Source: Amanita rubescens (lineage: Eukaryota; Basidiomycota; Agaricomycetes; Agaricales; Amanitaceae). Taken from it: a stretch of DNA of 64,000 nt. A program made the translations under genes and the position numbers. Below the pieces are notes generated by a model. It was not told the origin of the DNA, did no database searches, and was given only the letters and a program-made list of their open reading frames with translations. Shown here piece by piece: positions 5,660 through 63,760 of the stretch (position 1 is the first letter of the stretch; each line of letters opens with the position of its first letter). The DNA lies in contig WION01000057.1 of assembly GCA_015039365.1 (NCBI GenBank), forward strand, positions 154,770-218,769, written 5' to 3'.

Positions 5660-5668
5660 CCATCTGCT

Positions 5669-15749: not shown

Positions 15750-15870
15750 CACCCCTTCGCTAAGTACATAGGTACTTAACCTAATGCTGCTTCTTGATCT
15801 TCTTGAGTTCTTTCTCATAATAATTCACAAGTTCTTGAAAATAGCTGGTAGCATCAACATCACGAATGCG

Positions 15871-16907: not shown

Positions 16908-17227
16908 TGTAACAGGGCTACTATGTAGCTCTCGTACATATTCATCAAGACCTTCATCAAGATGGGAGATCCCTTTGGGATCTCCGAATACAAGGATGGG
17001 AGTTATCCATTAACTCCCTTGTAGATAGCTTTCCCTTATTCTCGTAGATAGTCTAACCGTGACGATACATATATGGTATCTAGTCACATTGTCACAGATC
17101 ATACTTACACTTACTTTACTCCACACGCGTCACCGCACGGTATCACGAATACACGTTGATTCAGTGCAAGACGCAAGGAGTGAATAAGTTGGAACCATAT
17201 TAGGTTCCAATAAGTAAGAACGTTACA
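16908..17227 (+). repeat. Left LTR of LARD-A
   Basis: 320 bp, TGTAACAGGGCTACTATG ... AAGAACGTTACA. Contains perfect hairpins such as GGAGATCC-CTTT-GGGATCTCC (one G shared) and GGGAGTTA-TCCAT-TAACTCCC. Near-identical to 37314-37633 and to the partial LTR at 63761. Confidence 0.9.
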
Positions 17228-17492
17228 CTTTTTTGCACTTTCACAAGTGTACTGTGCCATTCTTCTCAAACAGCTTATATCTCTCTCGAAAAACTATCTA
17301 CACACCAACCAGCACCAAGAAAGCGTTCTACAAACATCCCAATAACCCCTGGAGGTTCTCTAGAACCTCCATTTCGCGTTCCGGATCCCAGAAACCCGAA
17401 ACGACGCTTGTGACATTGTCCAAGCCATTTCAAATTTACGAATAAGATATACTCGTTCTACAACTACCTAGAGCGAACCAGAAACAACCTAA
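17228..17492 (+). other. LARD-A leader
   Basis: No gene. Holds a perfect stem GGAGGTTC-TCTA-GAACCTCC at 17351-17370. No obvious tRNA primer-binding site directly after the LTR. Confidence 0.5.
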
Positions 17493-20400
17493 ATGATTTC
17501 CGGAGGCTCCCACAACATGGAGCCTCCTCCACATAAGGATATCCCGAGAATGAACCTCCAGTACGACGAGGTATTCTCACTGCTCCTTCCTCAGAAGGAG
17601 AAGGGATATTGCGCTTCTCAAAGACGAATGAAAACGAAATACTACGAGCTCAAGGCTCGTTATGAGCAAAAACGCAAAGAAGTTCAAGAGAACTTCTGTT
17701 CCACGTCATCTCGGGAACTGGATCTGATGTCCAGTACCCTACATAGCTGGCACGAAACCCTCGTTGCTCTTAAACGGGAACACTATTCTGAGTGTTCCCA
17801 ACTCATCTTCAATCACGCAACTGAGTTCGACGACTTCGTCGCGAAATATCACGCTTCTCAATTCAAGATTAACCTCGACGAACCACTTTCACGCGACTTA
17901 CAATACGCCTGTCACGACGCGTATTTAGGCTTATATGATGGTTCGAGGTCTTTACCGTCCCCCCCCTATTCCGATCGGAGTCCGAGGAGTCCTATAGGAG
18001 TCACATCGGAATTTATTACAAATAAGATTACATTAACATTACAAATTTTTTAACACTACATTTTTCAATCGGACTGGTATCGGATGAATAGGAAGCCTTC
18101 CGATGGACTCGAATAGGACATAGGACTCTAATAGGACTATTCCTATAGGACTCCGACAATTCTGCGCTTTTTAATGTAGTCTTTGTAGTCTCATTTGTAA
18201 TACTACCATTTGCCAAGAGTACTGTGTGACCGTGGGAAAATTTGGAAAAAAAAATGTGAAAAATGCAGAAAAATCATGTAATCAGATTAGTGTGTAAATG
18301 AACATGCCAAACAATGCCAAACTCAAGTTATTTGCAAAATACTGTTTTAAACGCTTCATGTTAAAAAATTGAATGGCTGCCAAAAATCTTGAAAAATCTG
18401 GAAAAATCATGCGATCAGATTAGTGTGGAAATTAACATGCCAAACAATGCCAAACTCAAGATATTTGCAAAATACTGTTTTAAACACTTCATGTTGAAAA
18501 ATTGAAAGGCTGCTAAAAATCTTGAAAAATCAGGAAAAATCATGTGATCAAGATGGTGCAAGAATCATGCTCTAGAACAGAGCCAAACCCAAGATATTTG
18601 TAATTTATTCTTCAGATATAATGGAGAGAAAATTGATAGGTTGCCAAAACATCTTGTGACTTTGTACAAGGGCCCCTGGTTATGTTGATAAGACAATTGA
18701 ACCACTGGGGGTGTGGGGTCAGAGAAACTTCAAACATATTAGGTAAAACAATAGAATATCATAGTCTTAGGTTTGAGGCAATTCTGGAACAGAGCATGGA
18801 CAACCGTAAAGTTATAGTACTAGTAAAGGTGAGACTGACTGATATTGGCCTAGGCACTGTACTTAACTTCAAATTACTAATAGTACCTGTGATTGGAGGT
18901 AGCTGATAATGATCCATAGTAGGGCACTCAGTGTGGCAGGTCACAGGTGCCAGATGTCACTGCCACTGTGATTGGAACTTGAAGTTGATACTAGCCTATT
19001 ACATGTCACTGAGCCACCATTCTGTTACTAATAGTATTGACTCCCACATTATGCATGCCTGATTAGTTTTGGAAGTGACAGACCCACTTATGTATCTCTA
19101 CTTACTCATCATCAAATTATCTATCATTGTCCACACTCTGTTCAATTTCTATCATCACTGTTCTCTTAGTATTTGAGTTAACCATTGCTGAGTTAACTTT
19201 GCCACCGTATGCTTCTAGTGTGGAAGCTTAGTACATCAGCTAACACAGCAAAAGTCTGATCACAGACTTGTCTGATGTTATCTGATGCTTAAGTGTCTCT
19301 CACTGCTCAGATGGTTAGATAGTCTGAAGACAAGTCAGACAACTTATGAAACACTGTCTGTCAGACAGTCAGATAATCTGTGTGTCAGCATCTGTCAGTG
19401 CCTATTAGATAGTCAGACAACCAGACAATTAGTGTGTTAGCATCTGTCAGTGCCTGTCAGATAGTCAGACAGTCAGACAATTATTAATATGCTTCTAACA
19501 ACCACAGCTCACTGTGCCATACCATCCGACCAAATAACCAAGAACTCATCTCCACCTGCTTTCACCCCTTGACTTCAATACATACATAATCACAAATCCC
19601 TCATATTTACATACCTATGACAAATTGACAATCATAGGTGATTGGTGGTGAGTCATTGGTTGTTGCTGGCAACAAACATGTGGGATTGTGGAACTAAAAC
19701 TAGATCATCACTTCAACTGGCACTCTGCACTGCACCTCCAGCAGCCACTGCCATGTGCATGTTGCCAATGTCCTTGACCTCAGCAGCTACTCACCACTCA
19801 AGTCACATTACTGAAACTGACTTTCACCACTGCCAGCCCTTTCTAACTGATCACACATACTACATTGACTCATCATCACCAGCCAGACACACCCAAATTG
19901 TGTTGGGTTCAACTATGGCTTTGCAGGTGGTCACATGGAGTGGTGATACATTCCTTTACATTTACCTAGAATTTGGCTCAGATTTGTGTCCTAATTCTTG
20001 CATGACCTTGTGTGCATTTTTCAAGATCACACTTGCATCTGAAAAGTATTTTGCAAATATGTCAAGTTTGCCATTGTTTGGTTTTATAATTCTTATATAA
20101 CCTGGATCACATGGATTTTCCGCATTTTTTCAGTATTTTTTGAATTTATTCTGCAAGTTAAAGATACCTAATATAAATAAACATAAATAAACAATACCAA
20201 ACATGGTTCCCTATTTTTAAGGATTTTGGATTTCTTTTGCAAGTTAAGATGCCTAATATAAACAAACATAAACAAACAAAGCCAAACATGTTTCCTACCA
20301 TTTTACCTTTTTTTACATTTTATCAGAAAGTGATCAGAGTCCTATAGGAGTCCTATAGGAGTCCTAGGAGTCTGTCGGAGTCTAATCGGACTGGGGGGGG

Positions 20401-23400
20401 AGTGTAAAGTACTGGATGGTTCGATAGACCCGGAAGTAATATCCGAGTCGTTCTGGACGTTGGTCAAACATTGGGACTCGATATGCACAGCCATCTTCGC
20501 TAACGGCCAAGCTCATCCAGGCTCCAACCAACTTCCAAGCACAACCGATGAACCACGACCTGCAGCAGCCGTCAAAGCAATGGAGGAGGTTCCCAGAACC
20601 TCCGAGTCATCCACGAATGACTCCCCGACGTCTTCCGCTCAAACGCGTCATCATCCCGGCCCGAGTCCTTTTGAGTCTCGAAACATACCGGAACGAGTTC
20701 AAATGACTCGTTCCCAAATACTGCTTGAACTGGAGGGAAGCGCGCCTAGTACGCTTCCCGAAACGCCAAAGAACTCGGAGCGCATAACCGAGCGCTCCAT
20801 CTTGATAGACGGACTTGCTAATGCACAAGTCCGGACTCCCTCTCTTTTGGGTGAAACGCGGGAGGAACAACGGGTCTACAACCCCGTTGTTAGTATACAT
20901 GCAAAAGACGAGGATGTCTACTCACCGGAAACCGTATCAACAGCCCCCGTGCTGCCGGACTCCGTTCCCATCTCCTCGCCAATCCCTATTGCTCCTGCTA
21001 CGCCCAAAACCTGTCCTTCAACCCCGTCATTCAATCATAGCTCTTCACGAGCCATACGTGAGGTTAGAAGACCGAGAGACTCGACTTCCGAGTCTCCAAC
21101 GCCGTCGGAACGAGTTCGAATGACTCGTTCCCAAACACGTCCGAGCTCATTGAAGCCGGACTTCCTTTTTATGCCTCGGGAACTCCAACAGAACTCCCGG
21201 AGTTCCCTAATGGACCACGAGCTGTCCAAAGCTCGTAAAACGGACTTCCATGGGAAGTCCCCCTCGGAATCGTCAACGGAAACAGCAGCGACTGTCTCCC
21301 GCACTTCGTCGAAGTATCCTACGCATGTTGAGAAGCGACAATTGTCGGAACCAACTGTGCTTGTCCAGAAACTCTCGGACAAGAGTACAGGGACCGTTAA
21401 GTCATCACCTAGGTCCCAAGTCGTCACTGTCACTACGCCTTGCGCTCCTAGCTCTGGAGCTGCATCCAATTCGAAATCTCGAATGGAAAACGCGACTGTT
21501 AGCACAGGGAAACAAGCCAACATGTCAGAATATGCACCTTCGACCAAGACAGCCCTCACGCTGTCTAAACTCTCGCCCGTCTCCCCTTTACGGGCCCATC
21601 CTTCAAACCGGCTCATGAACGAGCCCAAGCCATCCCCTCTGAACGTTTCCAAACGGCATGCACCTGGCGTCGTTAGTACGAAACAAATGGCGAGCAGAAG
21701 TGCTCACCAGAAGGTTGATGCTCGTTCGAGAGCATCATTACCAGCCGCCAACTGGCCATTTGGTAAACCACCCTCGTCTCCAGGCCTAGGACAATCGGAT
21801 CAGCTCAAACAAGCTGCTAGACCGCTCGGAAGTTCTTTCGAACTTCCCGCAAATATCCCGGAATGCTCCGCAGAGCATTCCATACTATCTGGACGACTTA
21901 CCAACAAGCAAGTCGTCTCTCTTTCGCCCTCTGGTGGAACGGGGGAGGAACGGCATACGCTAGACGCCGTAATTAGCAAACAAAAAGAGAATATTGAAAA
22001 TCCCATACCTGAAGCTTCGGCAGCCTCCACGCTGCCAGTATCCACTCCCATCACCATTCCCATCCATCCTGGCCCTTCACAATGTTCGTCTCTTGAAGAA
22101 ATCCACACGCAAGTGACCGAAGGAGCCATTCAGAGAGTCTCAACTCCTGAGACTCGAAACACGCTCGAACGAGCTCAAATGACTCGTTCTGAAGCTAGTC
22201 CGAGTTCTGCAGAATCGGACAGTCATCCTGAAACTCCGGGACTCATTATGAGTCCCCCGAATATTGCTCGCGAGCCTATGTCGGCTCGAATACCCATATT
22301 GGTCAAACCTGTCCCGGAGATGGTCCTGCCCATCTCCCGACCTTTACTCAGCTCAGGTATACACGTCAAGGCTGGAAAACGACCTAAGCAAACCGTTCCG
22401 AGAACCAGAGAGCCCCCGAAAGGAAGCTCTCGTATCAGCAACAAGTCTTCTAGCCGAACCGTATCGACTCCCTCTTCGAAACGTTGGGATGTCGAGAAAC
22501 CAGCTATAGGAAAGGCGAAAGTCAACCCTGCGAAGAGAACGAGAGCAGTCAAACACTTACCTGCACCCAAGACGGCCCTCTCACTGCCGAAAACCTCGCC
22601 CATCATAATCTCCTCAACTCGGGCACCTCCAACTCGTCCTTCCAGAGACAGGGCCTCGCTTCCTTTCCCTGGAGTTTCGAAACGACGCGCATCGAGCGTC
22701 GTAAACACAAATCATGTAGTAGATACAAATATTACACACCGTTTACCGGAGACCCTCTCTCGGGTCTCCAATGAATTTTCTTCACCACCGTCTGGTGAAA
22801 GCTCATCTTCTCCTGCTACCGGAGAAGCTAAAAAATCGGTTAAACCTAAAGGAGGACCAACTCAGTCCTTCGGAATCTGTGAGCGTTCCGCTGAGCGCTC
22901 TGCTCAAATTCAAAGACTCATCGGCACACGAGCCTCAACCCTTTCCTTTTCGGATGAAAGGAGGGAGAAACGGCGGATCTACGACACCGTCATCAATATT
23001 CAGATCAATACAAGTGAAGAAAAAGACTCACTTGAAGCAACAGCAGCTTCCACGCTGCCATTCTCCACTTCCGTTCCCTCATACATCCGTCCTGCGCCAA
23101 CAGCATTCACTCGTCCATCTTCGGACGAGCATTCACCACCTGTTGAGGTGGTAACCGGACGACGCATCCTAAGCGTCGTCAATAAGACATTATTGGCGAG
23201 TGAACAACCACACTCACCTTATAACGGGACTGCTCGAAGACAGTCCCAATACCGTACAACTCCCTCAAGAGATGAAGGAGTGCAGCTTGCAAGAGCAGCT
23301 GCATACATTCGGGAGCGTATCAGTCGACGCTCCCTCGCCTGTGCCGAATCCATCCGTTGTTCTCCAAAGGTTCCGCCTGACAAGACAGTAGAACCTAGAC

Positions 23401-24902
23401 TGGATTCTAGATGGCTTGCTATACAAGTCATCAATAAAGAAATGGAAGCGAGCGTAACAATACGCTCACCTGAACCTGAAGGTCCCGAAGCTCCTTTGAT
23501 ACAGCCTGATGCTGCGATCCAACAGCCCAAGACTCGGAGAGCTAACGAGCTCTCCTCTGGACATTCGGAAGCCAGCCCACGGCTTCCTGGACCTACGCTT
23601 GACGAAGCGGACAACAGACAGCATCGAGACTTGCATGCTGTCAATAACGTCGAAATGAGCATGAGTTCACGCTCACTTGTACCCAATACGGCCCTCACAC
23701 CGTTCCGCTCATCCGCGTCTGCCTGTCCTACGCAGATCTATCCCTTGTTCCAGCCGAGTTACGTCTTGCTTGAACCACATCGGCTGGTCCATCCGCTCAC
23801 ACAGTCGAGTGCTGAGCTCGACTGGCTTTATACATCCCGACAATGTCCTTGGGATGTAGTCAATACGTCAATCAATTCGGAGAACACAATCCGGTACTTA
23901 CCTGAGTCAAAGGCCGAAAGCAACGAGCCTTCTCCCATCTTATCCAAGACCGGGAGAACTCGGGAATCCGGCCCCTCATTCCCTCAAGACGTTCCATATC
24001 AGTCTGGCACTGGAGAAGAAGCTCAGCAGCGCAGCTTATGCACTATCAGCAACGTGAAAACGGGTACAACTGGGTACTCACCTGATTACCCCGCGGTCCC
24101 TTTACCGCGTTCTCGCATACCGGTCGACTCCCTGCCGGTTTTCCCATCCGTTCGGCTGAATATTGAGCAACTCCAGCCAATTCCCTCGGAGCTTCCTGTC
24201 TCAGGACTCGGAAGCTCCCAACGATGTCCCTTTGATGTCGTTAACACTAAATTCGACTCGAGTACTAGTCTGTACTCACCTCAACCTGCGGCAGTGTACA
24301 CACTGCATATACCCGAACACACCAGCCAAGCCGTTTCTTTCGACCTTGACTGTAGTCTTGGCATATCCTTGAGAACGACACGGGTCCTCAGTGTCATTAC
24401 CTTCTGTGAAACCAGGCATTGCGAGGCTGAAGAGACGGAGTACACAATCATCCACGAGTACATCGAGGACGACGAGGCTCCCGCTTCAACCCCTCCTTCT
24501 TATGCCTATGTCGACGTCAAGGCCACAGTGAACGCGCTACCCTCGCTTCCGCCCGAGCCTTCGTGGTGGGCGGAAACTCCGGGTTCCGTGTGCGTCGAAC
24601 GCGTTTGGCGCACCCGCTGTAAACCGCCCAGCTTTGCGGTCAATTTAAGACGACAAAACTATCCTGTCGTCAATAAAACAATTAATATGGGTAAAGACAA
24701 CTCACCCTTATATCGGGCAGTACGAATACTGCCCAAACTGTTCAATTCCATTTGCATCAACCGCTTGAGGCCGCGACGACAGTTATACGTCGACATCTTC
24801 CGATTTACGAGCAATCCGGCAAGACCGCTACTTCATTGCCACTCCCTTGTCTCGCTCGTCGTCGCATTCTTGCAGTATTTGCGAATTGATTCGGAGGGCT
24901 AA
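17493..24902 (+). CDS. LARD ORF1, 1,643 aa of unknown function, interrupted by element E2
   Basis: Two open pieces, 17493-17946 and 20425-24902, are one gene. Dropping E2 and one copy of its target duplication gives 4,932 nt, exactly 1,644 codons including the stop, with no frame change (DGS joined to IDPE). The start is the ATG at 17493. Residues 1 to about 190 are mixed, charged and likely helical (KYYELKARYEQKRKEVQENF). About 1,150 residues follow that are rich in Ser, Pro, Thr and Arg and repetitive, with recurring RxxMTRSxxxPS and VVN...SP motifs. The last 200 residues are again ordinary, with TEYTIIHEYIEDDE and SLPPEPSWWAETPGS, and are well conserved in LARD-B with mostly synonymous changes and codon-sized gaps. 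I recognise no family. A gag-like role for the N-terminus is only a guess. E2 breaks it at this locus. Confidence 0.75.
18235..18600. repeat. Tandem repeat in E2, unit about 132 bp
   Basis: Two and a half copies share AAAAATCATG, GATCAGATTAGTG, AACATGCCAAACAATGCC and TTTGCAAAATACTGTTTTAA. Copies start near 18235, 18367 and 18500. Confidence 0.8.
19300..19490. repeat. GTCAGA-rich tandem repeat in E2
   Basis: A unit of about 61 bp (GTCAGCATCTGTCAGTGCC ... AGATAGTCAGACA) occurs twice, in a wider run of TCAGACA words. A similar run is at about 4790-4880 in E1. Confidence 0.7.
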
Positions 24903-26335
24903 TTTCGAGCCCTCCACACATGTAAATCTGTAAATTATGAATATACTTATCAGCAAAATGAACACAATCAAGTTATGAGCTTACAACTCACCTATTTAAT
25001 CGAATTACTCGGAAGGAGACTCCCTGAGAGTCTCCACACTTAATAATAACTTCCCTCTTCTTGTAAGAAGGGAAGAAACTCGCGACGAGTCAAGTTAGAT
25101 TCATCCGAGCCTAAAAACGGAGAGTTACAACGAACTCTCCACTAACATTTACCGGAGGACTTACCATTGAGTCCTCCCCGTCCATCCGTTTGACACCGCG
25201 TCCTCGGGAATGCCTCCTGGCCCTCGTTCATTCCAATACGTGAGAGGGCGACGCATAGTCCTACCCTCGAGACCGACGAACTGTCCAGGTCTCAAACAAG
25301 AATCCTGGAGAGAACTCATACTGAGTCCTCCCCTTTAACGTCCGACGAGCCGGGATAACTGCAGCTATACGACGCAGTTAATACGAATCAAAACGAGTAG
25401 AAAACGAGAACGCACCTGATGCCAAGGCTGCTCTCTCGCAGCCATCCATCGTCTACCTCGTCTGCTCCCTCTCCCAGTTGTAAACCACCCATAACGGACA
25501 AAACGGCGACGCTATAACGTCGTCAACAAAATATCACCCTCGGGTATAAGGAACTTACCTATACCCTCGACATTACACGGGAACTCAACGAGAGTTCCCC
25601 CGACCAACTCATACGCCCGTTTTTCTCCTTTTCTCTTGAAGGGGAAGAGACGCTGGGCGTGTTATTAAGATTAATCGTCCTAAACGATGGAGAGTTCCAA
25701 CGAACTCTCCGAATACATTCGGGACTCGAAAGAGTCCCACTCCTTCGACATTGACGGCAGACTTGTTCATAGGGACTCGCTTCTGAGTCCCAAGAATCGA
25801 TAAGCGAAGCTGAAAGAAATCGGTCAGCGAGAAACGAAGAAATAGAAAGAAGAGAACATACCTCTCCCGGAATCCCTGCCTTCATCTCGTCTCGCTCTCT
25901 CGCATCCGTTCTCGCATTCCCTCAGATCAATCCTCCATTGATAACGTCAAACGGACCGTTCCTGGCCCGTTCCCCCCTGTCAAAATGCGTGAGAGGTCAA
26001 GCCCTCGCTATCAGCCAGTTATACGCGTCTATACTCGGATGCTCGTCAGCCACGCCAACAGGAACAACACTAGACGCTTACCTGGTGTCTAGCATTATGC
26101 TCCCTTCTCCCCAAAGCACGTCGTGTGGGGGAGAAACCCTCTATCACCCGGGACCATGTATATCTGGTCCCCTGCTCCCTATTTCCCATCTCCTATCCCT
26201 CGGGATCGATCGTCGGTCAGCGCTGAAGTTACGTCGCACTATCCTAACAGCCAAGTCAGCCAATCAAACCCAACGAAAGGAAGAAAAAAGGAAAGAATCA
26301 AGAGACGCACCAAGTTATACCTTAGCCGCGCTCAC
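20876..26335 (-). other. Antisense array of at least 16 intron-like segments
   Basis: On the minus strand these stretches have a GT donor, a branch site and an AG acceptor: 20876-20925, 21664-21707, 21960-22008, 22979-23031, 23169-23217, 23419-23469, 23630-23676, 23848-23901, 24035-24081, 24230-24279, 24659-24705, 25365-25415, 25512-25558, 25810-25861, 26029-26081 and 26244-26335. Donors are mostly GTGAGT, GTGAGC or GTAAGT. Branch sites include ACTAAC, GCTAAT, GCTGAC and TTGAC. All but the last are 44-54 bp. Five lie downstream of ORF1, so a protein motif cannot explain them. Several are kept in LARD-B. The intervening exons show stops in all frames in places, for example 24280-24658, so a spliced noncoding or decayed antisense transcript is the best reading. 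Confidence 0.6.
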
Positions 26336-26416
26336 CGGCCATCTCATTTCCTTCCTCTCTCTCCTCTCTCTCTTCTCGATCACCAACGGATAAGACGCGG
26401 CTCTTGAAGCCGTACT
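24903..26416. other. LARD-A 3' region, hairpin-rich, no plus-strand gene
   Basis: Begins with the stem GGAGGGCT-AATTTCG-AGCCCTCC that contains the ORF1 stop codon. It continues with perfect stems such as GGAGACTC-CCTGA-GAGTCTCC, GGAGAGTT-ACAACG-AACTCTCC and GGAGGACT-TACCATTG-AGTCCTCC. Five of the antisense introns lie here. LARD-B carries the homologous region at 61553-63045. Gypsy 1 is inserted at the right end (GTACT duplication). Confidence 0.65.
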
Positions 26417-26867
26417 TGTTACGAACTCGTTAATCTCAACTTAAGTTGCAGCAACAACTCTAGTCACGATTACAAGTCTTAAGTCAAACGTTAAGATTAT
26501 AAGTTCAATTCCAAGTCAAGACGTTGACTTAGAATCTGAGGACGATTGTGGTAGATGAGTTAAGAGTAAGGTTATATTGCCAGATGACAATAAACAGCTA
26601 AGTCGAACTTAGGGTTCGACTCTAGAATACATGTGGTACTTATACTAGCAAGTACAATGAGACGTACTAATTAATGTACAAAGGTAAGTACGAAAGTATG
26701 TATAAGGACGGCGTCATATGTGGAACAAGGAATGGTATAAGAAAGTAAACGAGCTTGTCCGTATGAATCGAGCATAAGGGGGACGACGAGTAAGGTAGGC
26801 ATAAAGAAATAAACATGTCCGACGTATCATGTAAGCATAATGCGGGAGTCTGTACCGTGTTGTAACA
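26417..26867 (-). repeat. 3' LTR of Gypsy 1
   Basis: 451 bp. Differs from 36255-36705 at only a few bases (for example GAGGACGA versus GAGGATGA, GTCTGTACC versus GTCCGTACT). Contains the stem AGTCGAA-CTTAGG-GTTCGACT with a small overlap at the loop. Confidence 0.92.
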
Positions 26868-26907
26868 CTAGCTCTCCCCTACGTTGTTGACCGCAACAAC
26901 AAAACGT

Positions 26908-28641
26908 TCAGGTGTTCATGTTGTGCATGGCATCGTCGTCGTGCTGATAGCCGTAGTCGCCATAAAGGCCGCAGGCGTCGTCATCGGCTCCGTCGCATTG
27001 TCGTCCATTGACACATGCCTGACACTGTGACGCGTGGTGTGCCTTCTTCTTTCCCTTCTTCTTCGGCTGATGAGGGCGGCGGCTAGTGGAAGCGGGGGTA
27101 TTGGCGGTATCTGCGGCAGCTCGAGAACGTCCTTTCTTCTTAGTGGAAGGACCGGGCGTCGGATCGTGTCGGCGTGTGGGAGCGCGTGTAGATAGAGTAG
27201 ACACAGGAGGAATTGTAGTAGCGAGATGGTGATCCTCAGAGGCATGTTTACCTCGGCAGTGAATGCAGCGGTTGTAGCGGTGGGGACGTTGGTTGGTGGC
27301 ATTAGTCATACTACGGGTCGTAGGTCGTCGAGGAGGCGAAGTGTCGTTTCGTCGAGTAGTGGGGACAGGAATATTCCAGACTCCGTGGCGAATAACGGTG
27401 GTGGTTGGGGGTGATGCGGATCGAGGAGGAGGAGGAGCCTTCTTATCTCGTTTCGGTTCTTCCTCAATGAGATCGCCTGTTGTACGGATTCGGTGATGAA
27501 GATCGAGATCGCTGATCGCATTATTGATCTGCGCAATGTGGTCGCTAGTGAGTTGATGCAGGGGAACTCCGTCTGCGAATTCGGCTGTGGTCCATTCCGT
27601 GTCTCCTTGGATACTGGACAAGAGATCTCGGATCTTTCTGGTGAGGCACCAGATTTCTCTTGATTTGCGATCTGTCTCCATAATGCATCTAGTTGCTCGG
27701 TGTCGGTCGGGTGTAGCTTTGGTAGCGCGAAACCAATGGTTGACAGCGATGCGGTTATTCTGGTCGTGAGGCTGTATTTTTAGTCCAAACCTTTGATCGT
27801 CGATGCTTTCTATAGCAAGGATGATATAGCGCTCGACGTCAGCTGTGAGAAGTCGTCGTAATAGATCTATCGCCAGTTGATCTAGGTTTCCTCCTTTCGG
27901 ATGAACGTCTTCCCAGTATAGTGACGTAACGTTTACAAAGGTTTCGATTAAATCGGCACAATGATAGTTGTACTGATCTCGGGCTTGACCGGCAAGGGTA
28001 GTGGCGGTTCGGAAATCCATGAGGAGTCGCCAGACTCGAGCTATCCTTTCTTGGTCAAAAACGTCGACCTGTAGTCTAGCAGTGTTACAGATCAGAGTGA
28101 CGCGGTCTCTAACCTTGGTGTAAGTAGTAATTCCGTGATAACTGAGATAGAGATCGGGGGTGGTTCGTATGATGGAGCCAGCCATATCGCGGTTAGTCCC
28201 ATCTGTACCGTGACTCTGGTCGTTGCCTCGAATAAATTCGTTATGAGATTGAGTCGAAGCGTGACCGGCAAGTGCTGTCTCTCTATGTAAGGTAACGCTA
28301 ATGTCTTCAGCGTTTCTAGGTGGGATCGGTCGGCTAGTGCGATCTTCCGTAATTCGTCTAGGTACAGCCAGAGTTTCTGATGTTCCGTGGTGGGTTTCCT
28401 GGGTCTCGGTGGGAGTGATCGGGATCGTTTGCGATGAGGTCTGATCGGGAGATCCATGGGGAACATCAACGAAGTCGTTCGGGTCAGCGTCTTCTTCGTC
28501 GGTGTCGGTGGTATGTAGAACGAGTCGAGGTCGGTGGGGTTCGACGGAAGTGGTGAATCGGGTGTCGGTGGTCTCTCCAGCATAAAATTCAGACCAGGGG
28601 AAGTGCTGAACGGCGTCGGTCGTGTCGTTTCCATTCTGCAT
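26908..28641 (-). CDS. Gypsy 1 ORF3, 577 aa, unknown, Cys/His motif
   Basis: An extra open frame 3' of pol. Its ATG at 28641 lies 25 bases downstream of the pol stop (28667-28669). The first 150 residues are acidic and Thr-rich. A predicted globular part follows (about residues 150-370: YNYHCADLIETFVNVTSLYW, LLRRLLTADVERYIILAIES, TRKIRDLLSSIQGDTEW), then a Pro/Arg-rich tail with CIHCRGKHASEDHH, a C-x2-C-x3-H-x4-H pattern, and a Lys-rich patch. No signal peptide or membrane helix is evident, so it is not env-like. Gypsy 2 has a counterpart (42837-45047) at the same place. A nucleic-acid-binding or second gag-like role is inference. Confidence 0.75.
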   Translation of the reverse strand: MQNGNDTTDAVQHFPWSEFYAGETTDTRFTTSVEPHRPRLVLHTTDTDEEDADPNDFVDVPHGSPDQTSSQTIPITPTETQETHHGTSETLAVPRRITEDRTSRPIPPRNAEDISVTLHRETALAGHASTQSHNEFIRGNDQSHGTDGTNRDMAGSIIRTTPDLYLSYHGITTYTKVRDRVTLICNTARLQVDVFDQERIARVWRLLMDFRTATTLAGQARDQYNYHCADLIETFVNVTSLYWEDVHPKGGNLDQLAIDLLRRLLTADVERYIILAIESIDDQRFGLKIQPHDQNNRIAVNHWFRATKATPDRHRATRCIMETDRKSREIWCLTRKIRDLLSSIQGDTEWTTAEFADGVPLHQLTSDHIAQINNAISDLDLHHRIRTTGDLIEEEPKRDKKAPPPPRSASPPTTTVIRHGVWNIPVPTTRRNDTSPPRRPTTRSMTNATNQRPHRYNRCIHCRGKHASEDHHLATTIPPVSTLSTRAPTRRHDPTPGPSTKKKGRSRAAADTANTPASTSRRPHQPKKKGKKKAHHASQCQACVNGRQCDGADDDACGLYGDYGYQHDDDAMHNMNT

Positions 28642-28920
28642 AGTAACTTGGTATGTGAATGATATTTCAGAGTTTCCTTCGTCTTTTATATTCTAGAAGG
28701 AGGTCTTCCATATGCGTTAAGTTATTTTCTGGTTCCCATGTGTTTTCGCTGGTGTCATAGCCTTTCCACTTTACAAGAAATTGTAATTTCCCTCTAAACT
28801 TGCGATGTGCAAGCAGTGCTTCTACTTCGTATTCTTGTTCTCCTTCGATCAGATCGGGAGGGGGCCTTGTTTCCGTTGTTCCATGAAAGGAAGTTTCTTT
28901 GAACGGCGTTAGTAAGGCGG

Positions 28921-29269
28921 TGTAACGTGTCGATTCCGGCTATGCTGGAACCGACACTGAAACCCTCTGAAACCCTCACCGCACCTTCGGCTCGAACCCT
29001 TGACCTCGGAGCCACGTTCCGAAGCTCCGAGACTCGGTATCGGATACGTTTCGGACCGTATTACGCACGTAGCACACGAGGCATGTAGTTTATATACCCC
29101 GTCGTAGTTAGTTTTATACAGTTTACTTTCCCCTCACTTCGCATCTAAGTTCCTGAGCCCCGAGAGTGTGACCGAAGTTGGGCGAGCACCTTTCGGTGCT
29201 GCCAAACTCGCTCGGCAAACACCGAGCCTCGGAGATTGCACCCAACGCAACCTCTGTTTTGTTGTTTCA
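28921..29269 (+). repeat. 5' LTR of non-autonomous element 2
   Basis: 349 bp. Differs from 30714-31062 at very few bases (for example CTGCCAAAC versus CTGCCGAAC, CTCTGTTTT versus CTCCGTTTC), so the insertion is young. TTTATATACC near 29092 is a poss­ible TATA region. Confidence 0.9.
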
Positions 29270-30197
29270 ACTGGAGCCCACCGCTCGGTCCAATTCCGGT
29301 TGCACTCACGCTCATTCACACTTGCGCACAGCCCCGGAGGCTTTCACTCTTTTGGACGGCCCCATCTGCTTACTTCCGGCTCTCATACGTCTGTTGGTTA
29401 CTGCCAAACGCGCTCACTATGCATCACAGCCTGCCGAGCATGCCGCACGACGACTACTACAGCCTGCCAACCCTTATCGGATCCCATCGCAGCCCATCCG
29501 CACGGACCGCCGTGCAGCACGTGTCCGCCTCATGCACCACCTCTGCCTTGCACCCCATCGCCCGATTTCTACAGCCTGACGCAGCCCCATCCGAGCCCAT
29601 CAGCCACCGTTGCACCTTATCGGATCACATCTGGCCTCATCGGTTGCCATCGCGCCCATCGTGCCCACTCCGCCTCGCAGCATACACTCACCTCATGTAT
29701 CAGACTTCCGGACCACAGATGCCAGCCATTATTCCACCCAGCTCGACCCTTCATTAACCCACTGCGCTCCTTCCCTTCAGCAACACGTGTAGACCACGCT
29801 GCACCCTCCCTTCCCCTCGTTTCACACTTGCAATCGCCACAGCCGTCCACCGCCACGTCCCATGCCCTCCGGACGCTGCCAGCACCTCGGCACGTACCAC
29901 CGTCTCTCTGCTGACGCACGCGAGTCAAGAGTCTTTTTTTTTTAGCGATTTTTTTTCTTTTCTTCGCAGGATAGGCATACGGTGAAGCCGTATCTGTCAC
30001 TACAGCGCATGTTCACTAACCTCGGACCCCTCGGCTACCCCTCTTCACGACCGGCACCACCACAGCTCAATCCGCACCCCGACAAGCAACTGAAGCCCGC
30101 TCGGAGTGTGGGGGAAGTTGGGATGACTCTAGGATACGGATATCAGTACGCACACCGCAGGAATCATACAGGAACCCTTACCCCGAACCGAATTTAG

Positions 30198-30357
30198 CAT
30201 TTTGACGAAGCACGCCAAGGTACACTCCCCACCGAGCGGGGGTGGCCTACTCTTTCAATTTCTACGAGACACTTCACACCGAGCGGGAGTGGCCTCCATT
30301 TTAGCATTTTCACCTTCGAACAGACACTCCACACCGAGCGGGGGTGGCCTACATTTC
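30198..30357 (+). repeat. Three-copy tandem repeat, about 54 bp
   Basis: CACCGAGCGGGGGTGGCCTA (middle copy AGCGGGAGTGGCCTC) occurs three times at about 54-bp spacing inside non-autonomous element 2. This was not seen in element 1. Confidence 0.8.
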
Positions 30358-30713
30358 TGGATCTCTCATACTGCCGACGATGACTACCGCAACTGCACCT
30401 GCTACTCCACAACCTTAACGCACCCTTCCCCTACATTCCGACAGTCACCGCATCACGCCGACCAATCCTGCCATCAGACCCCGAGCCCTCCGAGCCATAC
30501 CGCCACTGCTGACTCCTCCTTATTCGCGACTACCTATGCACAGCCGGATCGGGCCCTACCGACACTTGTCTACACTGCCGCCAACTCCCACTGCTCTACC
30601 GACACTACGCCTTGCATCCGACATCTTTTCCCTCACCTCCGACATTCAATCTCGTTCACCACCGACGCGACGGAGGTTGATGAGGACGTCAACATTCAAA
30701 ACTCCCCAGCGGG

Positions 30714-31062
30714 TGTAACGTGTCGATTCCGGCTATGCTGGAACCGACACTGAAACCCTCTGAAACCCTCACCGCACCTTCGGCTCGAACCCTTGACCTC
30801 GGAGCCACGTTCCGAAGCTCCGAGACTCGGTATCGGATACGTTTCGGACCGTATTACGCACGTAGCACACGAGGCATGTAGTTTATATACCCCGTCGTAG
30901 TTAGTTTTATACAGTTTACTTTCCCCTCACTTCGCATCTAAGTTCCTGAGCCCCGAGAGTGTGACCGAAGTTGGGCGAGCACCTTTCGGTGCTGCCGAAC
31001 TCGCTCGGCAAACACCGAGCCTCGGAGATTGCACCCAACGCAACCTCCGTTTCGTTGTTTCA
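30714..31062 (+). repeat. 3' LTR of non-autonomous element 2
   Basis: 349 bp, partner of 28921-29269, preceded by AGCGGG and followed by the target duplication GCGG. Confidence 0.9.
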
Positions 31063-34000
31063 GCGGCGTGGAATACGTTATGAATTTTCCATTGTCTTGG
31101 TAGCGTGAGACGATATGTCACTGGTCCTAAGACTTCTTTAATGGAAAAGGGACCTTCTCGTTTAGGTGCGAGCTTTCTGCTCTGATAAGGAATCTTCAGG
31201 TTCCTAGACTCTAACCATACTTTGTCATTGACTTTGAACGGTTTAGTCTTTCTCGTTGTTCTCTCCATCATCTTAGCTCGTGCTAGATCATGTGCGGCGA
31301 GTGCTTCTTCTCGTGCGCGGAACAAGGAGTTGATGCGGTTATCAGCGGTTGGTGTATTTGTCTTATCTGAGACAAGGGGAAGTGCAACCGGGGATGTTCC
31401 ATACATCAATTGAAAGGGCGATTGTTTCAATGCTTCATGAGTGCGTGAATTATGCACGAATTGTGCTATTGGTATCATCTTGTTCCAAGTATCTGGTTCA
31501 TAGGCACAGAATATTCGGAGATAAGCTTCTAATTCGGCATTATATCACTCCATTTGTCCATCAGTCTGCGGATGGAAGGCGGTACTCATTTTGTGTTTGA
31601 TCTTTAATGAGTCCATTATGCCGTTAAAGACATGTGATGCGAACTGTGGTCCTCGATCGGAGATCATGATGTCGGGTAAACCGAAGTTTTTGAATACATT
31701 CCGAATGTAGAGGTCGGCGGTTTCGTCGGCGGTGATGGTTTTATTACAAGGCATGAGAATTACTCCCTTTGTAAGTCCTTGATCGACCACGATAAAGATA
31801 GAATCAAAACCGTTACTTGTGGGCAAATCGGTTATGAAATCCATAGTTATTTGTTGAAAAGGTCGGTGTGCGTGAGACTTGATTGGCATCAGAGGTGCGG
31901 CAGTAGGGTGTGTATTTGATTTCATTTGTTGACATGCCGTGCATCCGTCAATGAACTGTTTAACCATTTTAGACATTAATGGCCACCAGTAATATTCCTT
32001 TAATAAGGCGAGTGTTTTGAAGAAACCGGGGTGTCCGCTTGTTGGTGATTCATGAAAATCTCTAATAATATCTCGGCGAAGATCGGTGTCAGGGGGAATA
32101 AAGGATTTCCCTTTGTACAGGATTAATTCATCGTCAAGGGTCCAATCAGAAAGGGCAGTGCGTAAAGGTGGTGTTCCTTTTTCTTTTAGACATTTCTTGA
32201 TTGATTGAGCAAAGTCGTCTTTGACAGTTATTTCTATTGCTCTGTCACGGAGATCTTCGGCGATTGTGCGAACAAAGAGTTCTTTTGGGAGCATCGTTAT
32301 TAACTCTTCTGGTTCGTCTTTTGTCATATGATCGGGTCGGCGGGATAAGGCGTCCGCTATTATTAATTTCGCTCCAGGGATGTGGGTTAATTTAATATTA
32401 AATTGAGACAAGTCATTCCACCATCATGCTTGGCGGTTCGTAAGACGTTGTGGTTCTCGATAGTAGAGTAGATTCTTGTGGTCGCAATGAATAATGACAG
32501 GGTGTTCTGCTCCTTCAAGCAGATATCTCCATTCGTTGTAAAGAGCGTAGTAAATGGCGAATAACTCTCGGTCGTAGATTTGCCATCGTGTTTCAGTCGG
32601 TGTTAAAGCGTGGGATAGGTATCCGCATGGGTGTAAGTCGCCATTGTCATCTTTCTGCATTAGAACTGCTCCGATAGCGCGGTCTGATGCATCCGTTTGT
32701 AGAATAAAGGGTTTGTTAACATCGGGCATCATTAAGACAGGTGCGGATGTGAAGCGTTCTTTTAATAGATCAAATGCGACTTGGCATTCTGCGGTCCATG
32801 TCCATAATTTGTTTTTCTTTGTTAGGTCATGCAGGGGTCGTGCGAGGTGGGCGAATCCGAAAATAAACCTTCGATAGTAATTTCCGAATCCTAAGAAGGA
32901 TCTAACTTGTTTAACGGTAGAAGGGGTTGGCCAGTCCCTGATTCCGGCAAGTTTGATCGGGTCCATTTTTATTGTATTTTTGGATATAACGGTGCCTAGA
33001 AAATCAACTTCTTTGGCAGCGAATTTACACTTTTCAAGCTTGAGGTAAAGATCGTGTTTCTGTAATCGTTCAAGTACTTGTTTTGTTCGAATCTCGAGTT
33101 CTTCTTTAGTGCGCGCGTGTATTAGCATGTCATCCATGTAGATGACGAGCCATCCTTTTTCTGTAAAATCCCTGAAATAATCATCCATCATAGCTTGAAA
33201 CGTTGCTGGTGAATTTCGTAATCCAAAGAACATGACGTTAGGTTCAAATAAACCTCGATTGGTGATAAAGGCAGCTTTCCATCTGTCAGATTCTTTGATT
33301 TGAACATTATTATATCCCCATCGGATATCCAATTTCGTGAAGTATTCCGAATCTTTGAGTTTGATCATAAGATCGGAGATAAGAGGTAGTGGATATGCGT
33401 TTGGTTTAGTATATTCGTTCAAATATCGATAATCTTGGCAGGGTCGTAATTTTTGTGCTTCTTTCTTTTCTACAAAGAAGAAAGGTGATGCCTGCGGTGA
33501 TTTCGATGGTCTGATGTAGCCTTTTTCGACATGTTCTTTAATCCATTCATCCAGTGTGTTCTGCTGTTTCGGAGATAAGGGATAGATTTTTCCTCTTTTT
33601 GGTATGAAATCATCGCGAAGTTCTATCTGGTGATCCCAAGATCGGCTTTCTGGGAATCGTTCACTTGCTTTTTTCTCGAATACGTCTTTCCATGCCGAGT
33701 ATTCAGGAGGGAGCGTGTAAACCTCCTCTGTTTGATGGTATTTGTGTTCCATTTGTTGAGCTGGTGTATATCGTGCAATAGTTACTTGGTCGTATTCGTC
33801 TTCTGACCAGCTTCCTATATCCTCAAATGTATGCGCGTTCCATCCGTGATCTGTCATCTGTGATCCTTTGTGTGACATCAAATATCCGATGACGAGATCT
33901 TCTTCCCATTCAGGCATAGCTATTCTGTCGATCTGTTGACAGATGCTCCGAAGTGATGCCTTGATCTTATCCTGTTCAGAGTCTCGGAACTCTAGAGTCT

Positions 34001-34420
34001 TTTCTCTCCAATTTACGTCAGGGTTATGCTTCTCTAGCCAAGGAAGCCCCAGTATAATCGTTTGTTTTCCTATTGCTGATACGTAAAACCATTCGGTCAT
34101 GCGTTTTCCGTTCATTTCGAAGGTGATTAGACATTGTTCATCAATTTCTCCTTCTTTGTTTATGGTGCCATCGACGTTATAAACTCTAATTGGTCGTGGA
34201 GTTTTTCGTTTTCTCCATTTGTGTGCTATTCTTTTGTCGATAAATATCCCTTCGGCTCCGCAGTCGATAAGGGCAACGAGGTTTTCAGTGTTGTTTTCAG
34301 TTTCAACTTTGATAGGGACGGATAATCTTTGTTTTGAAATAGATTGTACTGTTACATGGGATATATCGAGAGTTGAATCTGATGGTTCTAGGACTTCATC
34401 CACTGTCATGAGTCCCACTG

Positions 34421-36163
34421 TTAAAAATCCTCGTTATCATCGGCAAGAGATAGTAATAGGTCATTCTTTTCGTCGGTTGACATTCCTTTCATCAGCGCTC
34501 GGATGTTTTTGGTGTAATTTGGTTTAGACTCTCGGACTTCTTCTTCTTCCCAATTTCCGTCACCATCATCTGATGTGGCTCGAATGTGACGTTTGGGCGT
34601 GAATCCTCTCTTCTTTCCTCCTTTGAATCGGCTTTTCCCTTTGTTTCTCTTCTTCTTTGGGCATTGCCCTGACATGTGTCCTTTTAGTCCGCAGATGAAA
34701 CATAAACCGTCTCTAATGTAGCGTTCTCTTTCTTCTTTGGTCATAGATCTGATCATAAGTTCCAATTCTGGATCTTCATCTTTTTCTAGATATTTATGAT
34801 CGATCTGCATTGCCCAAGATTCGTCGTTGTGAGAGGATGATGAATGACCATTTCCAGATCGAGGTGAATAGGCATATGAACGGGTTCGGATATTGTCAAG
34901 TTTGATAGCAATGTCATACCAGTCCTGTAACGTTTTTGGGTTCATGAGCATTGCTTTTTCGAATTCTGGTGCTGTAAGTCCTTTTCCGAACATATGGAAT
35001 GCTGCTTCTCCTTCGATTCCGGCTTTCGTGATTTGTTCCTTGAACTGATTTACGTAATTAGGTAGGGTCATCTGTTTCTTTCCTTTCATGGACGATCTGT
35101 TCTGTAGATTGAGAATTTTCGTGTATGCGTTTCCACTCGGATCGACTTCTCCCCAATCTGTCAAGAATGACAGTTTAAATGCTTCCCAGTCATCGAATAA
35201 AGCAGGTCTCGTGATGCCTCCTTCGGTGGTGGCGCGAGATTTTCGTAGTTCTGCTAATTTATTCTTTTTCCACTGTCTGGCTCCATCCGAGATCTTATTT
35301 AGGGCGGCAAGGATTTTTAAGCGGTCGGTATTCATCCGCTCAGGATTCATATCAAAGAAAATTTCAATGTCTTCTATGAATGTATTGGCATCCTTTCGCT
35401 TCCCTTTGAATTCAGGAAGATCTCCGATGAGACTAGGGGTTCGTGGATTGGGTATAGGGTCTGTACTTCCTCCAGACATTCTTGGTGATGGTGGGGGTGA
35501 TGGATCTCTGCGTGGTGGAGTTGGGTCGGTTTTAGGTTCGTCTACTTTGATTCTGTCAGAGTCAAACGGGTCTTCGTCGTCCTTTTCTTCTTTAGGATTC
35601 GAAGGACCTGGTTCGGGATTGGTCGGTTGTTGGGCAGGTGTTGGTGTCATTCCAACTGAAAGGTCACTGAGAAAATCAAGGGATAGATCGGGTTGTTGAT
35701 CTGTATCTCCTTCTTTCTCGGATTCACTATCGTTTAGGCCAAAGTTTGCTTTCTTTTTGCCTTTTGTAGTTGTCGGTGTGGGTAGGAGAGGTTTCGGTCT
35801 TAAGTTCTCTGGTAGAGCGTCAACAGTCCCTTTTATCCAAGTGGGGGTGTTGAAGTATTCGTTAGGAACAAATTCTTGTGTTTCGGATGCTATCCAACGT
35901 TCTGTGAGGTGATCAAATCTGATGTGCTGTTCTTGAAGATATAGATCTGCGAAGTAATAGTATGATTCGTTCAGAGGTCTAGTTTCTTTTTGTGGTATCC
36001 AGAATTCCTGTTCTTTAACTGGATTTCCTTTTAAATCTTCCCAGATTCGTTTTGCACCGTTTAGTCTGACATAGTATCCGTCAAGAACGTAGTTCCCTTT
36101 ACGATCTCGTGTAGCTCTATTTGGTGGAGCTCTCCAATCCGTTTTGACAACGTGGCCAGTAAC
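34421..36163 (-). CDS. Gypsy 1 gag with long ATG-less leader frame
   Basis: Structural protein. From the ATG at 35650 the 409-residue product has an acidic Pro-rich start, a capsid-like helical region (FKGKRKDANTFIEDIEIFF to about residue 270), and a zinc knuckle CFICGLKGHMSGQCPKKKR (C-x2-C-x4-H-x4-C) before a basic tail. The frame stays open for another 171 codons upstream, to a TAG at 36164, with no ATG. That leader encodes sequence clearly related to the same region of Gypsy 2 (QEFWIPQKETRPLNESYY versus HQFWVKQKLGRPPNQSFP), so it is probably translated. The frame ends GAT TTT TAA at 34421, where pol takes over in the -1 frame. Confidence 0.82.
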   Translation of the reverse strand, partial: VTGHVVKTDWRAPPNRATRDRKGNYVLDGYYVRLNGAKRIWEDLKGNPVKEQEFWIPQKETRPLNESYYYFADLYLQEQHIRFDHLTERWIASETQEFVPNEYFNTPTWIKGTVDALPENLRPKPLLPTPTTTKGKKKANFGLNDSESEKEGDTDQQPDLSLDFLSDLSVGMTPTPAQQPTNPEPGPSNPKEEKDDEDPFDSDRIKVDEPKTDPTPPRRDPSPPPSPRMSGGSTDPIPNPRTPSLIGDLPEFKGKRKDANTFIEDIEIFFDMNPERMNTDRLKILAALNKISDGARQWKKNKLAELRKSRATTEGGITRPALFDDWEAFKLSFLTDWGEVDPSGNAYTKILNLQNRSSMKGKKQMTLPNYVNQFKEQITKAGIEGEAAFHMFGKGLTAPEFEKAMLMNPKTLQDWYDIAIKLDNIRTRSYAYSPRSGNGHSSSSHNDESWAMQIDHKYLEKDEDPELELMIRSMTKEERERYIRDGLCFICGLKGHMSGQCPKKKRNKGKSRFKGGKKRGFTPKRHIRATSDDGDGNWEEEEVRESKPNYTKNIRALMKGMSTDEKNDLLLSLADDNEDF

Positions 36164-36254
36164 CTACGGGCTGGCTTTCCGGAAGTTCGTCGAAGTGTAT
36201 GTTATCAAATGCCAATGAATCGATGTTCAGGCTTATTGATAAGTTCGACTTAAT

Positions 36255-36705
36255 TGTTACGAACTCGTTAATCTCAACTTAAGTTGCAGCAACAACTCTA
36301 GTCACGATTACAAGTCTTAAGTCAAACGTTAAGATTATAAGTTCAATTCCAAGTCAAGACGTTGACTTAGAATCTGAGGATGATTGTGGTAGATGAGTTA
36401 AGAGTAAGGTTATATTGCCAGATGACAATAAACAGCTAAGTCGAACTTAGGGTTCGACTCTAGAATACATGTGGTACTTATACTAGCAAGTACAATGAGA
36501 CGTACTAATTAATGTACAAAGGTAAGTACGAAAGTATGTATAAGGACGGCGTCATATGTGGAACAAGGAATGGTATAAGAAAGTAAACGAGCTTGTCCGT
36601 ATGAATCGAGCATAAGGGGGACGACGAGTAAGGTAGGCATAAAGAAATAAACATGTCCGACGTATCATGTAAGCATAATGCGGGAGTCCGTACTGTGTTG
36701 TAACA
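36255..36705 (-). repeat. 5' LTR of Gypsy 1
   Basis: 451 bp, partner of 26417-26867. On the sense (minus) strand the leader begins directly after it. No TGG primer site is obvious in the first bases. Confidence 0.92.
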
Positions 36706-37313
36706 GTACTGGATTCTCGGCGAGCTCCAGGACTCGGAGCTCCCTCCCGCTTGGATTATTGCTAGGAGCCCCTAGCGATAAATGGACTTGACGCGTCTTG
36801 CGCGCGTCACATGATCACCGGATACCGGCCACTCCCTTTCAACCGGTACCAACCTCCTCACATCGAAAGCCTCTGGAGCGATCCCACCTCAACCGTTTGG
36901 CTTCAAACTTCGCACATGCGATGCTCTCACCATAAGCATCATGCCCAAGTCATCGGAACCCTCCTCAGCAACGTCCAGCCGAGCGCAATTCATTTTGACG
37001 CATCTGCCCCAGCTTGCTTGTCACATTCACGTGACTACCTTCCATACTCGGAAGGTACGCCGAATTTCGACGCGCCCAGACGTCGAATGCTCTACAGGCC
37101 CGAACTCCAAGTGAACAGCATCGCAGATGTTCGCTTTTATCGGGGATACATTCTATCCATTATCCCCTACACCCTCGGAGAGAAATTCGATTTTTACTTC
37201 GGTGAAATCATTATTCTCTCCCCTTTATCCTCTTTCCCAAGCAAGTTTGCATATGCAAACCTCTCCCATATATTCCTATACTTCGCCAGTGACCCTTGGC
37301 GAGTGGGGGAGGA
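36706..37313 (+). other. LARD-A 3' end with a possible second ORF
   Basis: Matches 63046-63653 of LARD-B closely. A frame from the ATG at 36811 (MITGYRPLPFNRYQPPH) is open to 37419 but runs into the LTR. In LARD-B the same frame is broken by a 1-base difference near 63354. Coding is therefore doubtful. Stems such as GGAGCTCC and TAGGAGCC-CCTA palindromes are present. GTGGGGGAGGA at the right end is the candidate polypurine tract. Confidence 0.5.
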
Positions 37314-37633
37314 TGTAACGGGGCTACTATGTAGCTCTCGTACATATTCATCAAGACCTTCATCAAGATGGGAGATCCCTTTGGGATCTCCGAATACAAG
37401 GATGGGAGTTATCCATTAACTCCCTTGTAGATAGCTTTCCCTTATTCTCGTAGATAGTCTAACCGTGACGATACATATATGGTATCTAGTCACATTGTCA
37501 CAGATCATACTTACACTTACTTTACTCCACACGCGTCACCGCACGGTATCACGAATATATGTTGATTCAGTGCAAGACGCAAGGAGTGAATAAGTTGGAA
37601 CCATATTAGGTTCCAATAAGTAAGAACGTTACA
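37314..37633 (+). repeat. Right LTR of LARD-A
   Basis: 320 bp, near-identical to 16908-17227 (differences such as TGTAACGGGG versus TGTAACAGGG). Followed by the target duplication GGCAA. Confidence 0.9.
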
Positions 37634-58527: not shown

Positions 58528-58528
58528 G

Positions 58529-63653: not shown

Positions 63654-63760
63654 GTGACAAGTGTTTAACACCTCACGAAGATCTTAAGACACAATTTCGA
63701 AGATACACAACACTTGTATCATCATTTCTTAAGATTGCAATGCAATCTTGTGGGGGAGGA
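63654..63760 (+). repeat. Insert with duplicated polypurine tract before the LARD-B LTR
   Basis: LARD-A goes straight from GTGGGGGAGGA into the LTR. LARD-B has an extra stretch of about 107 bp (ending TTGTGGGGGAGGA) so the tract TGGGGGAGGATG occurs twice. The insert has palindromes such as AAGATTGCAATGCAATCTT. Confidence 0.75.

Follow-up and report, generated by a model that had tools for sequence, protein, structure and literature searches.

The 64,000-nucleotide stretch of Amanita rubescens DNA analysed here (contig WION01000057.1 of assembly GCA_015039365.1, positions 154,770 to 218,769; hereafter the window, in whose coordinates positions are given) contains a copy, termed LARD-A, of a multi-copy fungal element that is bounded by long terminal repeats (LTRs), lacks a recognised pol and resembles the large retrotransposon derivatives (LARDs). 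A long sense open reading frame (ORF1) runs along its plus strand, two foreign insertions interrupt it, and a second family copy (LARD-B) lies at the end of the window. The original prediction for this locus, made from the letters of the sequence, was of a LARD built from a dense series of short perfect hairpins that extend through ORF1, the 3' region and LTRs of LARD-A, and LARD-B. The assignment to a LARD-like LTR element holds, given its LTR pairs, its 5-bp target site duplications (TSDs) and the lack of a recognised pol domain; the LTR of LARD-A is also present, with its extent corrected to 320 bp (Table 1). The hairpins do sit in this element, and some 19 putative introns on its minus strand, together with the arrangement of hairpins around their acceptors, were missed by that first reading.

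Hairpins were defined as perfect inverted repeats with arms of at least 7 nt and loops of 3-14 nt. By this definition the region 20425-26416 holds 55 stems, against 3.8 (largest 9) in 30 dinucleotide shuffles, and the excess persists in the same shuffles at arms of at least 6 (71 against 12.5), at least 8 (32 against 0.87) and at least 9 (7 against 0.27). Within the ORF part, 43 stems with arms of at least 7 were counted, against 3.1 (largest 10) in 200 codon-preserving shuffles, and 26 against 1.0 (largest 5) with arms of at least 8; a density no higher than in such shuffles, named beforehand as the outcome that would speak against the hairpin claim, was thus not what was found. The five hairpins quoted in support of that claim are all present (20585-20603, arm 8; 20690-20714, arm 9; 21828-21847; 21860-21881; and 21892-21917), and a 32-bp spacing does separate the starts of the last three, while other start-to-start distances in the list vary widely. 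Its extension to the LTRs, the 3' region and LARD-B is borne out as well, with 10 stems against 0.8 in 16908-17944 (LTR and 5' part), 8 against 0.55 in 36706-37633 (3' part and LTR) and 33 against 2.9 in 58528-63759 (LARD-B; 20 shuffles in each case), which corresponds to an 11- to 15-fold enrichment in these parts and about 20-fold in the main array. The mean folding z-score (120-nt windows) is about -1.9 on both strands of the array; two 6-kb stretches elsewhere in the window gave -0.05/-0.56 and -0.78/-0.73. The further claim that such hairpins are unlike other sequence stands only in part: the element is extreme but not alone, since elsewhere in the window the stem ratio ranges from 0.9 to 8.4 times that of shuffles and some other repeats are mildly hairpin-rich. 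Two stretches outside the family, 5001-10000 and 15001-16907, have stem densities 6 and 8 times those of shuffles.

The minus strand of the same region carries a recurrent unit with the form of a short intron: a donor of the type GTRNGY, about 30 nt, a branch motif YTRAY, a further 9-22 nt and an AG (HAG acceptor). An automatic search of 20415-26412 for donor, branch and AG recovered no unit on the plus strand but 16 on the minus strand, where shuffles give 1.45 (at most 4); selection by pattern and eye in the window copy gave the 19 introns in Table 1, of which 18 have the branch motif. With signals in the right order and at the right spacing, these approximately 19 units suggest a series of spliceosomal introns on the minus strand.

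Table 1. Features of LARD-A, its insertions and LARD-B, with the putative antisense introns (window coordinates)
Feature	Position	Strand	Remarks
5' LTR	16908..17227	+	TGTAAC...GTTACA, 320 bp, TG..CA ends, own stems; 99% self-alignment to 3' LTR
5' internal part	17228..17944	+	between 5' LTR and nested insertion
Nested insertion, foreign to element	17946..20414	.	TIR-like (terminal inverted repeat) ends, ~10-bp TSD GATGGTTCGA
Main hairpin array	20415..26412	.	55 perfect stems, arm at least 7
Remainder of sense ORF1	20460..24902	+	1480 aa, Ser/Pro-rich, no Pfam match
Antisense intron	20876..20925	-	
Antisense intron	21664..21707	-	
Antisense intron	21960..22008	-	
Antisense intron	22504..22560	-	3' end 22504 or 22528, uncertain
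Antisense intron	22979..23031	-	
Antisense intron	23169..23217	-	AG within loop of GACGACGC..GCGTCGTC
Antisense intron	23419..23469	-	donor within stem GAGCGTA..TACGCTC
Antisense intron	23630..23676	-	donor stem: both sides change across copies
Antisense intron	23848..23901	-	
Antisense intron	24035..24081	-	
Antisense intron	24230..24279	-	
Antisense intron	24659..24705	-	
Antisense intron	24928..24991	-	outside ORF1
Antisense intron candidate	25111..25164	-	outside ORF1; YTRAY branch motif not found
Antisense intron	25365..25415	-	outside ORF1
Antisense intron	25512..25558	-	outside ORF1
Antisense intron	25810..25861	-	outside ORF1
Antisense intron	26029..26081	-	outside ORF1
Antisense intron candidate	26244..26310	-	outside ORF1; acceptor not kept in any of the four covering copies
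Nested Ty3/gypsy-type insertion, foreign to element	26413..36705	-	LTRs 26413-26867 / 36251-36705
3' internal part with stems	36706..37313	.	terminal purine tract GAGTGGGGGAGG, polypurine tract candidate, adjoins 3' LTR
3' LTR	37314..37633	+	self-alignment to 5' LTR
LARD-B, second family copy	58528..64000	+	internal part, 3' part, cut LTR; 33 stems in 58528-63759

Comparison of ten lineages (nine other copies and that of the window) revealed strong constraint at the donor and branch positions that a spliceosome would read. The donor +1 G and +2 T each change in 1.3% of cases and the +5 G in 3.9%, as against 12-34% for the nine other donor positions between -3 and +9; at the branch, the A is invariant across all 166 cells (18 of which belong to the window copy), the T varies in 0.7% and the purine in 8%, and the two pyrimidine positions change in 21-28% yet remain pyrimidines in all but single cells. 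The donor variants encountered (GTGAGT 58 times, GTAAGT 32, GTGAGC 31, GTGCGT 11, GTATGT 8, GTACGT 6, and two GC donors) are mostly of a kind that a spliceosome would be expected to accept. A peptide repeat was considered as the source of the motif and rejected on two grounds: valid donors persist where the encoded residues differ, and 7 of the 19 units lie outside ORF1.

The same features extend to a second subfamily, in which 17 loci have strong matches to the member L038 (54% identity in alignment), the locus of L037 among them. The GT dinucleotide survives in L038 at 16 of the 19 donors; independent retention of positions would leave about 5-6. In this comparison, as in that with L037, the aligner may favour donor-like words. 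By pattern L038 has 14 antisense units and 0 on the plus strand, together with a 1548-codon stop-to-stop plus frame and 53 stems in 6630 nt. L037 has 11 antisense-strand units and a broken plus frame. Hairpins and antisense introns thus recur in both L038-like members that were read. A motif search of the genome returned 82 matches, against 10 for the reversed pattern, many of them outside the first family, and clustering at 75% identity left 56 of 117 distinct antisense intron starts, so that these are not near-identical copies of one another.

Hairpins and introns are arranged with respect to each other. The acceptor G falls within a hairpin loop at a frequency of 0.343 (0.085 when positions are shifted at random; p=0.001) and hardly ever within an arm; the middles of introns are nearly free of stems (0.041 against 0.249). 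Of 59 non-redundant introns, 44% have a donor that pairs over at least 5 Watson-Crick base pairs with sequence just downstream, where shuffles yield 8% (at most 19%); with the antisense strand considered by itself, the figure is 43% of 56. Hairpins are weakly depleted around the branch (p 0.02-0.05), in a test whose branch window ends one base past the branch A and in which donors showed no enrichment. The looped acceptors and the donor pairing tie part of the hairpin array to the antisense introns. Stalled spliceosomes are a trigger of RNA interference in Cryptococcus, and the hairpins might accordingly slow antisense splicing so that stalled spliceosomes feed a SCANR-like small-RNA pathway, which would limit copy number or silence competitors. 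Stems at acceptors and paired donors are what such a process would call for, but most stems are exonic, the long upkeep of canonical splice sites suggests productive splicing, and an element that silenced itself would be expected to lose the trait; we regard this explanation as distinctly unlikely.

For the evolution of the stems themselves, stems were defined in one copy and change was measured among the others, rotating over the ten lineages. Arms diverge by 8.5%, loops by 21.0% and the remainder by 18.7%, which makes divergence in the arms 2.2-2.5 times slower than in spacers and loops. With stems taken from the window copy, transitions amount to 6.9% in arms and 13.6% outside stems, and transversions to 1.7% and 5.8% (3.4 times slower in arms); in the non-coding 3' part, transversions reach 0.4% in arms against 4.7%, about 12 times slower. 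A change is seen in 11.7% of stem-pair cells, whereas chance Watson-Crick pairs with equal spacing are changed in 34.6%; among changed pairs, compensatory changes make up 17.4% (7.3% in control pairs), and double changes restore pairing in 88.5% (54.7%). As copies are related and cells therefore not independent, a column-level count was also made, in which 278 of 462 stem pairs are invariant, compared with 1858 of 5000 control pairs. The slow arms, the particular scarcity of transversions and the enrichment of compensatory changes point to hairpins selected for pairing, that is, to a folded nucleic acid under selection. An attempt to deduce the folding strand from wobble pairs was dropped: the raw counts favour G.U on the minus strand (1178 A.C against 663 G.T cells), but control pairs lean the same way (ratio 1.41, against 1.78 in stems).

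These rates also bear on the possibility, raised in the original prediction, that template switching during reverse transcription is the source of the hairpins. A mutational process of this kind, in which template switching or slippage between short repeats makes and renews stems that have no function, would readily produce dense stems whose positions turn over between distant relatives, and it might account for the mild stem enrichment in other repeats of the window. In a survey of indels in alignments of at least 600 bits (nine copies), several of the 17 rows (at least 10 nt each) correspond to the gain or loss of a single arm or of an entire hairpin. Copying from arm to arm alone, however, should not slow divergence, and predicts that changes are mostly compensatory when only 17% are; with arms diverging at less than half the rate of loops and spacers, and transversions 3.4 to about 12 times slower, template switching is not supported as the sole cause, and a purely mutational origin is improbable. 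It may still create or delete stems. Stem-altering indels were noted, for example, at 17266 (three copies), 21384-21416 (five), 25027 and 25122, the first two of which are possible traces of template switching or slippage.

On the sense side, ORF1 extends over 1653-1721 aa from stop to stop in five further distinct copies that were fetched. For the 1480 codons of the window copy, 300 simulations of neutral drift predict 21.7 stops (range 9-36); 0 to 3 were seen in the aligned codons (907-1456 each) of nine diverged copies, five of the nine having 0; in some of these nine the frame is broken by indels. The ratio dN/dS lies at 0.58-0.82 in diverged pairs and is fairly even along the frame. A conserved domain was sought in ORF1 without success: there is no Pfam match, and pN/pS along the frame is mostly 0.5-0.9, with two windows slightly above 1. 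By these measures sense ORF1 is kept open under weak amino-acid constraint; it is probably translated, or at least protected, with a sequence that would drift within the limits set by the stems and the antisense splice signals.

If the minus strand were instead the true sense strand, the family would be one of host-like multi-exon genes with terminal repeats, and the plus frame an accident. The introns on that strand do resemble ordinary fungal introns, and 4 of the 20 antisense exons have a frame open in most copies. In the other 16, however, no frame is open in a majority of copies, which disfavours minus-strand coding and gives the antisense exons a non-coding look; the plus-frame stops (0-3 per copy, where about 22 are expected) would remain unaccounted for; and retrotransposition of a minus RNA template would erase the introns. 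This interpretation is very improbable. Spliced antisense retrocopies were also sought: among 39 candidates, no scored match spans a tested exon junction without its intron, in a test where the match of most diverged copies begins only after the first of two junctions. Since a retrotransposed minus RNA would lose its introns, this result makes the plus RNA the likely genome.

The stems and their conservation, the constraint on splice signals, the open sense ORF and the LTR and TSD structure are those of an LTR retroelement whose internal part, we would say with about even confidence, is used on both strands, as a sense ORF RNA and as a multiply spliced, structured antisense RNA. The plus strand would serve as the genomic and sense RNA with its one long open ORF, and transcription of the minus strand would yield an RNA that lacks a long protein frame and contains about 19 short introns of the spliceosomal type. 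Hairpins at the introns would hold acceptor AGs in loops and pair many donors just downstream, exonic hairpins would keep the RNA locally folded, and splicing would turn the antisense RNA into an mRNA-like, exported product. A retroelement would be able to keep introns only on the strand opposite to its reverse-transcribed RNA, and the orientation seen here agrees with this. Local self-folding of both RNAs might further hinder their annealing into long double-stranded RNA (dsRNA) that would feed RNA silencing; that splicing and strand-symmetric folding act jointly as such a silencing shield, with a conserved set of about 19 introns antisense to the genomic RNA and with both RNAs processed like any spliced and translated RNA, is put forward tentatively, as a possibility that we do not favour over its negation.

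The hairpins might alternatively serve the sense RNA, by compacting or protecting the genomic RNA for packaging in the particles of an autonomous element, the antisense introns being a separate matter. Stems are present also in the LTRs and terminal internal parts, in which 0 to 1 antisense units were counted; both strands fold equally well, and the sense ORF is kept open, all of which would suit this explanation. It does not predict acceptors in loops beyond chance or donors paired downstream, and ribosomes would open stems within a translated ORF; on balance it seems rather unlikely.

Several observations weigh against the use of both strands that is preferred here. Antisense transcription and splicing are deduced from the sequence. 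Acceptors have been lost or moved in several copies (an AG often persisting at a shifted place), and only 9 of the 19 donor GTs have a counterpart in L037 (45% identity). Stems change place between relatives: of the 55, L038 has 14 at corresponding positions, where 2.6 are expected (1000 shifts gave at most 10), and L037 has 6, where 2.7 are expected (at most 11). At the column level, G.U against A.C pairs favour neither strand (99:63, against 1679:1267 in controls, p=0.33), and donor helices display no strand preference relative to shuffles (GT 15 against 4.8 expected, AC 2 against 0.7). Donors are not enriched within perfect stems of arm at least 6 (0.283 against 0.246, p=0.31), only within shorter pairing, which makes the donor link the weaker one. 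Finally, a role against dsRNA presupposes, and so predicts, active RNA silencing in the host.

Among known systems, the element shares with LARDs its direct TG..CA LTRs, its 5-bp TSD and a large internal region without recognised gag or pol; it departs from them in that LARDs are defined as lacking coding capacity, whereas here an ORF1 of 1653-1721 aa is found in five copies. To our knowledge, no conserved long ORF, conserved hairpin array or antisense introns have been associated with LARDs. The HBZ transcript of HTLV-1 offers a precedent for a spliced antisense transcript from an LTR element; it encodes a protein, and two splice variants are described (PMC1459196). The present case, by comparison, is a fungal element without recognised pol that would have about 19 intron-like units and no long antisense coding frame. 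Non-coding antisense RNAs have been described for micropia of Drosophila hydei and other LTR elements, and antisense ORFs for plant elements, in passages that describe no conserved antisense intron or hairpin array (PMC7264820); antisense transcription of LTR elements, which we infer for the present one, would be the shared feature. In mouse L1, antisense-strand splice sites are conserved and reportedly drive exonization (PMC2176070). L1 is a non-LTR element, and the units here would instead form complete short introns inside the element. The introner-like elements of fungi are structured short introns found as near-identical copies across host genes. The present introns are likewise short, structured and many times repeated, but differ from each other in sequence and occupy fixed places in one element. 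A literature search of partial coverage (many journals lie outside it) returned no multi-intron antisense RNA of a fungal LTR element and no such hairpin array.

Retroelements lose the introns of their own RNA in each cycle. This family appears to keep a full set of introns in antisense, under strong selection and in at least two diverged subfamilies, and the preserved antisense splice signals and hairpins suggest that both strands of the parasite matter. Its regular, multi-copy anatomy offers a testable case of splicing and local structure serving a parasite RNA, whether in export, in escape from RNA silencing or in the control of copy number.

LARD-A is flanked by the TSD GGCAA. The ATG-initiated ORF at 17493-18053 in the list of ORFs is the start of ORF1, broken by the first insertion (17946-20414), and related copies read through that insertion by joining 17944 directly to 20415; both insertions are later than LARD-A itself. 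The first has TIR-like ends (CTTTAC..TCCCCCCC) and the 10-bp duplication given in Table 1, as in Mutator-like elements; the second (26413-36705) contains an ORF for a Ty3-type reverse transcriptase. After the 5' LTR no TGG-type tRNA site was read. ORF1 gave no Pfam match to a gag or pol domain, either in the window copy (E<=0.01) or in two other copies (E<=1). In the window, Rfam returned 0 matches at gathering score (no retrozyme or other described RNA family), and neither a tRNA nor a telomere repeat was found.

The family has further copies in the host genome: in the 75.7-Mb assembly (786 contigs), at least 40 scored matches to the family LTR were obtained from 60 candidates. A 5-bp TSD flanks 8 of 9 further LTR pairs that were checked; the ninth, C87, has none and apparently pairs LTRs that belong to adjacent copies. 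Two of the eight, C148 and C121a, are the same insertion: the full-length copies at C121:57967-66161 and C148:64951-73145 are identical over 5789 aligned bases and both 20-nt flanks, which indicates a duplicated segment or separated haplotypes rather than two insertions. One 8.2-kb copy has an internal sequence of about 7.5 kb. Altogether 21 copies were compared (20 fetched loci and LARD-B), and the substitution counts used nine of these and the window copy; L009 (98.6% identical), L012 (which repeats L011), L015, L018, L019, L022-L024, L026-L028 and LARD-B were excluded for being near-duplicate or short, and close pairs remain among the nine (L014/L016, 93%; L017/L020, 94%).

In the assembly as a whole, 48 matches to the Fungal_trans family mark the source as a fungus; a search with a fungal rRNA motif was negative. 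Two side observations concern the wider assembly. A family fragment adjoins a 52-bp tandem satellite in C21 (L026, C21:1-9900) and C732 (L025), in a block that is near-identical between contigs (L026/C21, L025/C732, L027/C499 and L031/C471) and that gives the same match score on 15 contigs; this may be a subtelomeric arrangement or an assembly effect. At L030 (C566:7900-10400) lies the one 5.8S rRNA match obtained for the assembly, with 39 of 2808 candidates scored. Its appearance is insect-like, its spacers are AT-rich, and we take it to be a possible contaminant, or a sign that the fungus was sampled with an insect.

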